A stretch of DNA of 64,000 nucleotides, from NCBI GenBank assembly GCA_006212015.1, contig SDAY01000001.1:1-64000 (forward strand), given 5' to 3'. This DNA comes from Halothiobacillaceae bacterium (lineage in GTDB: Bacteria > Pseudomonadota > Gammaproteobacteria > Halothiobacillales > Halothiobacillaceae). The notes under the pieces are model-generated. The model saw only the letters and a list, made by a program, of their open reading frames with translations. It ran no database searches and was not told where the DNA came from. Position 1 is the stretch's first letter. Each line of letters opens with the position of its first letter. The position numbers and the translations under genes were made by a program. Positions 1-62,090 of this stretch are shown here, piece by piece.

Positions 1-2065
1 TTGTCGAATTGCGGCTCTTGAACAGGTTGCCAAGGTAGGGCAGGTCGCCAAAGAACGGGATCTTGTCCACGGACTCGGCGCTGCTGACCTCATAGATCCC
101 GCCCAGGACGACGGTCTCGCCGTTCCTGACCTGGACCTTGGTGTTGACCTCGCGGTTGTTGATCGCGGGGGCGCCCGTGGGGGAGACACGGCCCCAGTCC
201 GGTTCGTCTTTCTTGACGTTGATGTCCATGATCACGTTGTTGTTGGGCGTGATCTGCGGCGTGACCTCGGCGGCCAGCACGGCGTCGATGAATTTGGTGG
301 TGGTGGCGCCGCTCGAACTGGCTTCCGAATAGGGGATCTTCTGCCCCTGCTTGATGCTGGCCTTCTGTCCGTTGGCGGTGAGGACGCGCGGGCTGGAGAC
401 GATCTCGCCCTTGCCTTCGGTCTGCAGCGCCTTGAGCTCAAGGTCGATGAGCACGTTGGAGCCCAGTACCGCAAGCGCGAGTCCGCCGGCTCGGGTGGGG
501 TCCGTCATCGGCAGGTTGATGTTGTAGCGGTCGCCCTGAAGCGGCAGTCCCGGCGCGAGTCCCGCGCCGATGTTGTTGATCATGCTGTCGCTGCCCGCGC
601 CGCTGCCGGTGATGACGGCGGCGTCGCTGCCATTGCGGGAGACCCCCGTCACCCCCCAGCGCACGCCCAGTTCCTTGGCGAAGTTGTCCGTCGCGATGAC
701 GATCCGGGTCTCGATCAGCACCTGCTTGATTTGGGTGTCGAGCTTCTTCACCAGGTCGCGGATCTTCTCCAGCGAATCGGGCGTATCGTTGATCAGCAGG
801 GTGTTGGTGCGGTCGTCCACCGTGATGGTGCCGCGCGGGCTGAGAAAGCCGGTCGGCCTGACGATCGCGCCAGGCGTTGCCGCGGTGGCGGCTGCCCCAA
901 CCGGGCGCAGCAGCAGGGCGATGTCGCTCGCCTTGGCGTAGTTGACCTGCATGAACTCGGACACCAGCGGCGCCAGTTCCTGGGTCTGCCTCTGAGCCTC
1001 CAGTTCGACCTTTTCGCGCGCCGCGATCTCCGCCGTGGGGGCGATGAAGATGACGTTGCCGTTCTTGCGCTGGGACAGGCCCTTGGTGGACAGGATCAGG
1101 TCCATGGCCTGGTCCCAGGGCACGTTCTCCAGGCGCAGGCTCATGCGGCCCTGCACGCTGTCGCTGACGACGATGTTGTTGCCGGTGAAGTCGGCCAGCA
1201 GTTGCAGCAGCGGGCGGATCTCGATGTCCTGGAACTTGAGGGTGAGGCGCTCGCCCTTGTATTCCTTCGGCCCCAGGAGGGCGGTGGCTTCCGCCTTGGG
1301 CAGGGGGCGGATCTCGACGGTGAGCTGGTTGTCGGCCTGGTAGGCGAGCTTTTCGAAGGGGTCCGAGGTTTCGATGATCAGGCGTGAACCTGCACCGCGT
1401 CTCTGCACGGTGACCTGGCGAGCGGGGGTGCCGAAATCGCCGACGTCGTATTTCTGTTCGGTCAGGCGGGTCTGCGGCAGGTCGATGATCAGGCGCTTGG
1501 CCTCGGCGTTCATGGTCATCGGCACGTTCGGCGCCGGGAGGCTGACCAGGAGGCGGCCCTCGCCCTGCGCGCCGCGACGGAAGTCGATCTGCGCTTCGCC
1601 CTGGGCCGCCTGCTGCGGCGCGGGGGCGTCGTTGCTCGTGCCGGCCTGGGCTGCGGGTGCCACGCCTTGGGGCTGAATCGAGAGGATGACTTCCTGTCCT
1701 GAAACCCTGACGTCATAGGCGCTGTTTTGCTTGAGGCTGATCACGGCGCGCGTGCGTCCCTGGGCCTCGGCGAAGCGCACGTCGTGGACGGGGCCGCTCT
1801 CGATGGTCTGCAGGCGCTTGTCCATCTGGACCGTGGTGTCCTGGAAGTCGAGGGCGATACGCGCCGGCTGCTCGATGCTGAAGTTGGCCGGGACGGCCTT
1901 GGGGGCTTCGGACATGGAAAAGCGGATGTGCATGCTGCCATCGGCTTCGGTGGTGACGTTCATGCCCTGAATGGCATTTTCGGCCCACGCTTGGGAGAGG
2001 CCGAGGCCCAGGGTAAGTGCAATGGCGGTTGCCAGGCGGTGTTTCTGGGTGGGGTTGTGTTTCAT
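1..2065 (-). CDS. pilQ: Type IV pilus secretin PilQ (C-terminus cut by window edge)
   Basis: Outer-membrane secretin through which the type IV pilus emerges. About 688 residues are visible on the minus strand. They begin with a Sec signal peptide ending in AWA, then AMIN-type beta domains that would bind peptidoglycan, then a secretin N-domain (LLQLLADFTGNN, VPWDQAMDLIL) and the secretin core (LIETRIVIA, then QGQKIPY and VLGGIY). The frame leaves the window at GNLFKSR, a motif that sits a few tens of residues before the end in this family. The ORF track shows only shadows here because the gene is open at the edge. The ATG overlaps the pilP stop by 4 bases, so the two are probably translationally coupled. 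It is the last gene of pilMNOPQ. Confidence 0.95.
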   Translation of the reverse strand, partial: MKHNPTQKHRLATAIALTLGLGLSQAWAENAIQGMNVTTEADGSMHIRFSMSEAPKAVPANFSIEQPARIALDFQDTTVQMDKRLQTIESGPVHDVRFAEAQGRTRAVISLKQNSAYDVRVSGQEVILSIQPQGVAPAAQAGTSNDAPAPQQAAQGEAQIDFRRGAQGEGRLLVSLPAPNVPMTMNAEAKRLIIDLPQTRLTEQKYDVGDFGTPARQVTVQRRGAGSRLIIETSDPFEKLAYQADNQLTVEIRPLPKAEATALLGPKEYKGERLTLKFQDIEIRPLLQLLADFTGNNIVVSDSVQGRMSLRLENVPWDQAMDLILSTKGLSQRKNGNVIFIAPTAEIAAREKVELEAQRQTQELAPLVSEFMQVNYAKASDIALLLRPVGAAATAATPGAIVRPTGFLSPRGTITVDDRTNTLLINDTPDSLEKIRDLVKKLDTQIKQVLIETRIVIATDNFAKELGVRWGVTGVSRNGSDAAVITGSGAGSDSMINNIGAGLAPGLPLQGDRYNINLPMTDPTRAGGLALAVLGSNVLIDLELKALQTEGKGEIVSSPRVLTANGQKASIKQGQKIPYSEASSSGATTTKFIDAVLAAEVTPQITPNNNVIMDINVKKDEPDWGRVSPTGAPAINNREVNTKVQVRNGETVVLGGIYEVSSAESVDKIPFFGDLPYLGNLFKSRNST

Positions 2066-8068: not shown

Positions 8069-8502
8069 GCGTTTGTGATAAAAATCATGCGCGCACATGT
8101 ATCCGCAACGTCATCGCGGATGCCGGGCGATCCTGCACGGCCCCCTTCGGGCTCGCTTCGCGTTCCAGCGCTGTTCCTGACAGCGCTTTTGGGTCGAGGA
8201 CCGTGGCGATCCATGGATGTGCACTTCGTCATCGCGAGGCCGAAGGCCGTGGCGATCCATGGGCCGCCGGTTCCGCGAGCGTTCTGGATTGCTTCACGTC
8301 GTTCGCAATGACGATGCCCCCTTCGGCCTCGTGGCTAAAGGCAGGCCCGCCCGGATGAAGGTTCTTGGGCCGCAATCCGGGGAGCTGACGCGCATCCCTT
8401 GCCCTCCACCTCGAATTCCCGGATTCCGCCGCGCTGCATCCGGGCTTGACGATGTCTGATCAGGTGGGGAGGGCGTGAAACATTCACAGCCTCCAAGGAT
8501 GC
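8069..8502. other. 434-base non-coding gap with repeat fragments
   Basis: No credible gene. The short track ORFs here (8075-8311, 8217-8459) read through repeats. The stretch contains one complete family C repeat (8227-8313) and partial family C units on both sides, for example CGTCATCGCG near 8109 and GTGGCGATCCATGG near 8205. It separates the ponA pair from hemE, which converges on it. Confidence 0.7.
8227..8313. repeat. Family C palindromic repeat, copy 1
   Basis: An 87-base unit that opens with CGTCATCGCGAGGCCGAAGG and closes with GTTCGCAATGACG, so the ends are inverted copies of CGTCATTGCGA. Related units occur at 51603-51714, 61671-61792 and, in part, 63041-63099. The sequence type resembles the widespread interspersed CGTCATTGCGAG repeats of proteobacteria. 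Confidence 0.7.
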
Positions 8503-34666: not shown

Positions 34667-34744
34667 GAGCGATCTGTCGGGAGTGAATCGGGCATCCGCG
34701 CTGGACGAGCCCGATGGGTGAGGGCCATGGAGGCCGGAATCCGT

Positions 34745-34910
34745 TAGCAGCCTGTCGGACTTGAGGGACTGAAGCGAAAAAGTCGCCGGCCGAGGACAGC
34801 AATGACGATTTTGCCGGGCCATAGCAGGGACTATGGCCCAAAAAAGCGGCGAAATATGGACCGGCCCGCGGCTTTTGTAGCCAGTTCGTCTCAAGTCCGG
34901 CAGGCTGCTA
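34745..34910. repeat. Family A MITE-like element, copy 1
   Basis: A 166-base non-coding unit bounded by inverted ends: left CAGCCTGTCGGACTTGAG, right the near-perfect reverse complement with one mismatch. Inside is a hairpin GGGCCATAG-CAGGGA-CTATGGCCC. The first about 120 bases match the reverse complement of 61812-62049 almost base for base. It lies in the gluQ/slt divergent gap and ends 54 bases before the slt ATG. Confidence 0.85.
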
Positions 34911-34964
34911 AAGTATAGGGATTCATATCAAACAATTGGAGCGCGCGTTTGGCGCGATGCCGTC

Positions 34965-51602: not shown

Positions 51603-51714
51603 CGTCATCGCGAGGCCGAAGGCCGTGGCGATCCATGGGTGCAGCGGCCCATGGATGGCTTCCCCACCACGGCCTTCTGTCGCGTGGCTCAAGGCAAGAG
51701 CGCTCGCAATGACG
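51603..51714. repeat. Family C palindromic repeat, copy 2
   Basis: A 112-base unit opening CGTCATCGCGAGGCCGAAGG and closing CTCGCAATGACG. It shares GGCCGTGGCGATCCATGG with copy 1 at 8227. It fills most of the 191-base gap between lipA and the NERD gene. Confidence 0.7.
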
Positions 51715-61670: not shown

Positions 61671-61792
61671 CGTCATTGCGAGCGAGCCTGCCTTTGGCCA
61701 CGAGGCCGAAGGCCGTGCTGGGAAGCCATCCAGAACGCCTGCAGAATCAGCAACCTATGGATCGCCACGTCGTTTCACTCCTCGCGATGACG
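61671..61792. repeat. Family C palindromic repeat, copy 3
   Basis: 122 bases opening CGTCATTGCGAGCGAGCCTG and closing CTCGCGATGACG, with the internal GAGGCCGAAGGCCGTG shared with copies 1 and 2. It is followed after 19 bases by the family A element; together they fill the pyrD-folD gap. Confidence 0.7.
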
Positions 61793-61811
61793 ATTGATTC
61801 AGCGCTTCCCT

Positions 61812-62049
61812 GGCAGCCTGTCGGACTTGAGGCGAACGGGCTGCAAAGGCTTGCGGAATCCATCCATGGATTCCGCCCTTCGGGTGTCGCTGTGCGACCC
61901 CACGCCGCTCCCGACGGCGCTGTTCGGGCCGGTCCATATTTCGCCGCTATTTTTGGGCCATAGTCCTGGCTATGGCCCGGTAAAATCGTCATGGCTGTCC
62001 TCAGCCGGCGACTTTTTCGCTTCAGCCGCTCAAGTCCGACAGGCTGCTA
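61812..62049. repeat. Family A MITE-like element, copy 2 (opposite orientation)
   Basis: 238 bases with ends CAGCCTGTCGGACTTGAG and its exact reverse complement. About 120 bases at the right match copy 1 (34745-34910) in reverse, including the hairpin GGGCCATAG-TCCTGG-CTATGGCCC. Copy 2 has about 70 extra bases toward its left end, including a hairpin GCGGAATCCA-TCCA-TGGATTCCGC. It ends 41 bases before the folD ATG. Confidence 0.85.
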
Positions 62050-62090
62050 GTACAATACCCACCCCTTTCTTGCCCGCCTGGAGCCCTCCC

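Follow-up and report, generated by a model that had tools for sequence, protein, structure and literature searches.

The repeat found twice in the window (the whole 64,000-nucleotide stretch analysed, from a Halothiobacillaceae bacterium) is very probably a MITE moved in trans by an ISAzo1-type IS1182-family transposase encoded elsewhere. This reading derives from coinciding ends, CTAG flanks, insertion sequences (ISs) bearing the same ends, the empty sites of those ISs, the co-occurrence of MITE and IS in Extensimonas, and covariation along a hairpin; movement by the IS1182 transposase is itself predicted from the ends, the target, and the Extensimonas co-occurrence. As far as the literature was searched, this is a new family of a known kind—the IS1182 MITE—with carriers across several classes of Proteobacteria: none of the papers searched, all available without subscription, contained the 15-mer of the end or described the family. 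Copies of the MITE break draft assemblies and alter intergenic regions of sulfur-oxidising bacteria.

Copies in the window and in its genome

The original prediction described two non-coding, MITE-like copies with near-identical ends, and both are confirmed, at 34748–34907 and 61814–62046. The first had been given as 34745–34910; the element there is real, but that span takes in some outer flank bases. The parts of the two copies and their surroundings are as follows:

34748..34907, plus strand: MITE copy 1, 160-bp form (CAGCC...GGCTG)
34666 (start codon), minus strand: class I Glu/Gln-type tRNA-synthetase gene, neighbour of copy 1
34965, plus strand: soluble lytic transglycosylase gene, neighbour of copy 1
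34748..34765, plus strand: left terminal inverted repeat of copy 1, CAGCCTGTCGGACTTGAG, 18 bp
34890..34907, minus strand: right terminal inverted repeat of copy 1, CAGCCTGCCGGACTTGAG, one mismatch versus the left end
34744..34747: left target-site duplication remnant of copy 1, TTAG (CTAG in most copies)
34908..34911: right target-site duplication remnant of copy 1, CTAA
34816..34839, plus strand: central hairpin GGGCCATAG-CTATGGCCC, the apex of the full-length hairpin, with strong covariation
61814..62046, minus strand: MITE copy 2, 233-bp form, with a dihydroorotate dehydrogenase-like gene on one side and folD (start 62091) on the other
61850..61924, minus strand: extra bases of copy 2 (about 73–75), small hairpins
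61810..61813: flank of copy 2, CTGG (altered CTAG)
62047..62050: other flank of copy 2, CTAG (plus-strand coordinates)

Copy 1 occupies the divergent intergenic region between the tRNA-synthetase and lytic transglycosylase genes. The terminal repeat CAGCCTGTCGGACTTGAG, the GGGCCATAG hairpin, and the body are common to both copies, which are 94% identical over the left 124 bp; their ends form an inverted repeat of 22–27 bp that is 89%–95% complementary. Neither has recognisable coding content. The surplus of some 70 bases claimed for copy 2 is borne out, at 73 (233 versus 160 bp), as is the internal hairpin, GGGCCATAG...CTATGGCCC at 34816–34839. No IS1182 or DDE_Tnp_1 transposase is encoded on the contig of the window (contig 170 of the genome), in agreement with the earlier statement that the window lacks a transposase.

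The window's genome (G000) contains about 25–30 copies with coinciding ends, which lie between genes and usually inside a duplicated CTAG. Searching the 2.39-Mb draft genome with the terminal 20-mer, as had been proposed, yields dozens of matches (69 with up to three mismatches, versus one for the reversed control), and a search with the whole element returns 55 matching places, of which some 15 are full length, the 55 including single copies read on both strands and duplicates at contig ends. Several copies do lie where a contig ends, and certain contig ends duplicate each other (C63 and C212), which could point to an assembly artefact; however, chance similarity or artefact has practically no probability given the near-empty reversed control, and is refuted by the presence of the same family in many independent assemblies, including those of cultured strains.

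Alignment of the copies, likewise proposed at the outset, places their ends at the same positions, in a mostly CTAG duplication, and this coincidence holds for all full copies of the window's genome. Among 75 distinct elements from all loci, most bodies measure 159–162 bp, the outer 4-mer is CTAG at 90 of 150 ends and CTGG at 21, and in 39 elements both ends show TAG in the inward direction (CTAG-type). The repeat is short, non-coding, and multicopy, possesses terminal inverted repeats, and shows a target-site duplication, as MITEs do, though copy 1 is flanked by TTAG/CTAA; its lack of an intact 4-bp repeat counts against the proposed movement. Across all ends, a change from CTAG to CTGG (read inward) is far commoner than any other. 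G110 and G233, which belong to one genus, share an insertion (L265/L270) whose flank reads CTAG in one genome but CCAG in the second, and hence the altered flanks there are decayed CTAG.

No sampled copy interrupts a gene, as judged by a simple codon-usage gene caller and in small numbers. Together with an unbiased orientation relative to neighbouring genes, gene-free insertion fits selection against harmful insertions and lends no support to a gene-regulatory role. The 166-bp element itself gave no match on a plasmid or phage.

A second, unrelated, intergenic-looking repeat is present in the window at 8229–8260, 51605–51636, and 61757–61790. Its pattern is TCATCGCGAG-(8..14)-GTGGCGATCCAT with a variable small palindrome midway, and it has 22 exact-pattern copies genome-wide versus none in the reversed control. 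Two of these TCATCGCGAG/GTGGCGATCCAT repeats immediately adjoin a MITE: copy 2 in one case and the C149 element (L006) in the other.

Insertion sequences with the same ends

The transposase gene with matching ends that the original prediction had sought was found, in other genomes: on their contigs, the same ends occur 1.5 kb apart around a transposase gene of 452–453 aa, within IS1182-family elements of 1.5–1.6 kb. Such autonomous elements are present in Thiocystis, an alphaproteobacterium, Extensimonas, and Pseudomonas plasmids. The transposase of this candidate helper contains the domains DUF772, DDE_Tnp_1, and DDE_Tnp_1_6, as is characteristic of IS1182, and close plasmid relatives are annotated 'IS1182 family', one being ISAzo1. 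The IS end reads CTAGCAGCCTGTCGGACTT in two Pseudomonas plasmid copies, CTAGCAGTCTGTCGG in another, and CTAGCAGCGTGTCGGACT in ISAzo1 itself. ISAzo1-type elements (ISAzo1 of Aromatoleum EbN1 and the Pseudomonas plasmid copies) thus resemble the MITE in their ends, CTAGCAGCCTGTCGGACTT/CTAGCAGCGTGTCGGACT, and in their CTAG duplication; unlike the MITE, they possess a transposase gene and a length of 1.5–1.6 kb, and their non-coding ends differ from the MITE interior.

For two plasmid insertions of the IS, empty sites exist in which the flanks are joined by a single CTAG (404/404 identity), uninterrupted in many plasmids, and hence the helper IS inserts into CTAG and duplicates it. In agreement with this, repeats of 4 bp are known both for the IS1182 element ISPse1 (PMC3281130) and for the 160-bp ISMac2 MITE (PMC3852290). 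One MITE in the window's genome (L004, G000:C181) lies in a CTAG that ends an ISKpn6-like inverted repeat (CTTCTGCCGCGCAGACTCCTAG) on its left flank, and two IS1182 subgroups therefore appear to share the CTAG target.

In the proposed mechanism, an IS1182-family DDE transposase of the ISAzo1-type subgroup, encoded elsewhere, would recognise the 18–20 bp ends CAGCCTGTCGGACTT..., excise or copy the element, and insert it at CTAG with duplication of these 4 bp, the element contributing only its ends and a 160-bp self-complementary body. As the helper is now absent from the window's genome, the copies there would be either remnants of a past burst or awaiting a transferred helper, and they would decay through mutation of the CTAG repeat and internal deletions across the hairpin.

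Extensimonas vulgaris (G392) combines many MITEs with one helper. Its genome contains 204 matches to the 15-base end (at most one mismatch) and about 100 of these 161-bp elements, but exactly one intact IS1182 with the same ends, which abuts one MITE across a single shared CTAG. Sampled 161-bp copies are 95%–98% identical to a reference copy, and most of those sampled have CTAG directly repeated on both sides, with CCAG or CTGG in single cases. Since E. vulgaris DSM 100911 is in culture, carries some 100 copies, and has only one candidate helper, movement in trans is directly testable there; a 2007 review noted that transposase-driven movement of such elements was at that time without experimental support (PMC2229807). 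The alphaproteobacterium CATOSZ (G394; L127 and relatives) stands in strong contrast to Extensimonas, with 84 matches to the same-ended IS1182 transposase in a genome of 7.4 Mb.

Further observations count against the helper model. A helper with these ends was not found in the window's genome, nor in the MITE-rich relatives G002 (same genus), G020, and G003. In a sample of 369 Gammaproteobacteria, five genomes contain the exact end and seven a strong transposase match with no overlap between them, although these numbers are too small to be read as avoidance. The MITE interior is also unlike the ends of the six helper ISs examined, with similarity scores no better than those of shuffled sequence, and for these six ISs an origin of the interior as a deletion remnant is therefore rejected. 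In contrast, both ends of a 189-bp element from Thiocystis (L128) do resemble those of its IS (L112).

Two further candidates were discarded. The sole IS1182 copy found in the window's genome (L079, G000:C118) is frameshifted and cut by the contig end, and it was rejected as the helper because it is ISKpn6-like (72% nucleotide identity) with a different 3′ end, CTAGGAGTCTGCGCGGCAGA. A 2.6-kb pair of terminal inverted repeats in G002 (C10:12937–15527) was rejected as an autonomous copy because inspection of the translations revealed no transposase within it; the pair encloses an asparagine-synthase-like gene and another ORF, its left end leads into sequence resembling the MITE, and the right one is an end-only unit.

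The full-length hairpin

The predicted terminal inverted repeats exist but are not restricted to the termini: the whole 160-base element forms one long imperfect hairpin, its arms paired from end to centre. Similarly, the description of conserved ends around a variable interior holds for the ends but not for the interior, which is conserved across classes, the differences in size being internal insertions and deletions. Identity of the interior within two sub-types averages 68%–70%, with a minimum of 46%–48%. The RNA fold of copy 1 reaches −91.9 kcal/mol versus a shuffled mean of −53.4 (z −9.0), and its DNA fold gives z = −7.1.

Covariation was assessed in an end-to-end alignment of 29 elements of less than 92% mutual identity, drawn from Halothiobacillus relatives, Rhodocyclales, Janthinobacterium, Oceanospirillales, Extensimonas, and others. 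The structure comprises 62 pairs, in which 89.9% of cells pair (78.5% when shuffled), with 205 two-sided changes versus 74.6 (sd 7.4) and a covariation score of 0.347 versus 0.155; as the structure was obtained from the alignment on which it is scored, and relatedness among sequences can raise values above those of shuffles, it is the size of the effect, rather than the shuffle count, that argues here. Sliding the partner by one base lowers pairing to about 42%. The hairpin is maintained by compensatory changes across Beta- and Gammaproteobacteria, and we infer that its fold is under selection. Tentatively, and with rather more doubt than confidence, the MITE may be a family old enough for some copies of one sub-type to have diverged to 46%–48% interior identity, in which selection acts on the entire 160-bp body as a structure and the hairpin takes part in movement or persistence, either as RNA or in the form of single-stranded DNA at the replication fork. 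If true, selection on the body would explain both the spread across Proteobacteria and the persistence in helper-free genomes; covariation across such distant hosts lets one ask whether selection acts on the body of a MITE as well as on its ends.

The strongest alternative to selection on the fold is that the paired changes are mechanical and arise from template switching from arm to arm. This process, quasi-palindrome correction, is a known source of mutation in bacteria and would yield two-sided changes over the whole length, and the internal deletions suggest that the hairpin forms in vivo. Such an origin is quite conceivable, if short of probable. Copying between arms should, however, erase mismatches, and these persist in beta-type elements (GAGG.../...AACGA); the persistent internal loops speak against template switching as the whole cause, as does a body whose length is still close to 160 bp in highly diverged copies.

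The hairpin might instead be kept as a working RNA, for example, as an RNase III substrate or mRNA stabiliser, in a partly domesticated element, a role with a precedent in that proposed for Neisseria NEMIS (PMC2229807). Compensatory change is strong, copies adjoin genes, and among pairs chosen on Watson–Crick matches only, the G-U cells of one strand exceed its A-C cells (63 versus 35), although this excess rests on related sequences and amounts to 35 versus 26 pair columns. Against this, copies are found both upstream and downstream of genes with no bias in orientation relative to them (five same, seven opposite), and the element has no Rfam match (E up to 1), so that an RNA role is considered unlikely.

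Size variants and known systems

One arm of the 233-bp form contains small hairpins, and homologous inserts are present in other copies of the window's genome and in G002; thus, this form represents an old sub-lineage. Short forms of 47–98 bp and end-only units of 30 bp also occur, with CTAG-like flanks. The shorter forms are internal deletions, and the 30-bp units would fit deletion between two GGCTGC copies inside the element. Several well-matched deletion junctions share 5–7 bp versus a null mean of 0.7 (P of at least 5 about 0.01), a homology that suggests slippage at the hairpin; other junctions, including three from Extensimonas, share only 1–3 bp.

Being palindromic, intergenic, and high in copy number, with short end-only forms of 30 bp, the element resembles REP/REPIN repeats, and it could in principle be a REP doublet moved by a RAYT tyrosine transposase; Y1_Tnp genes do occur in some carriers (G002 and G110). 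Four carriers (G000, G003, G014, and G020), however, lack a Y1_Tnp gene, and neither a CTAG duplication nor ends identical to those of DDE insertion sequences are REP features. The REP/REPIN explanation was therefore rejected as highly improbable, and movement by an IS1182-family transposase is preferred.

Among known MITEs, those derived from ISMac2 in Methanosarcina acetivorans belong to the IS1182 family and measure 160 bp (14 copies; inverted repeat 26, direct repeat 4) or 169 bp (PMC3852290). They differ from the present MITE in having an archaeal host and a named helper IS, and the likeness lies in family and size. The Correia/NEMIS elements of Neisseria are intergenic MITEs of 107–155 bp that can fold as RNA hairpins (PMC2229807), and in being intergenic, bacterial, and capable of RNA hairpins, they are similar to the present MITE. 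Their ends and helper are different, however, and Correia elements are further set apart by evidence of IHF binding and RNase III.

One further element, of 201 bp in G002 (L237, G002:C45), has the same ends and CTAG flanks around an unrelated interior that is also self-complementary.
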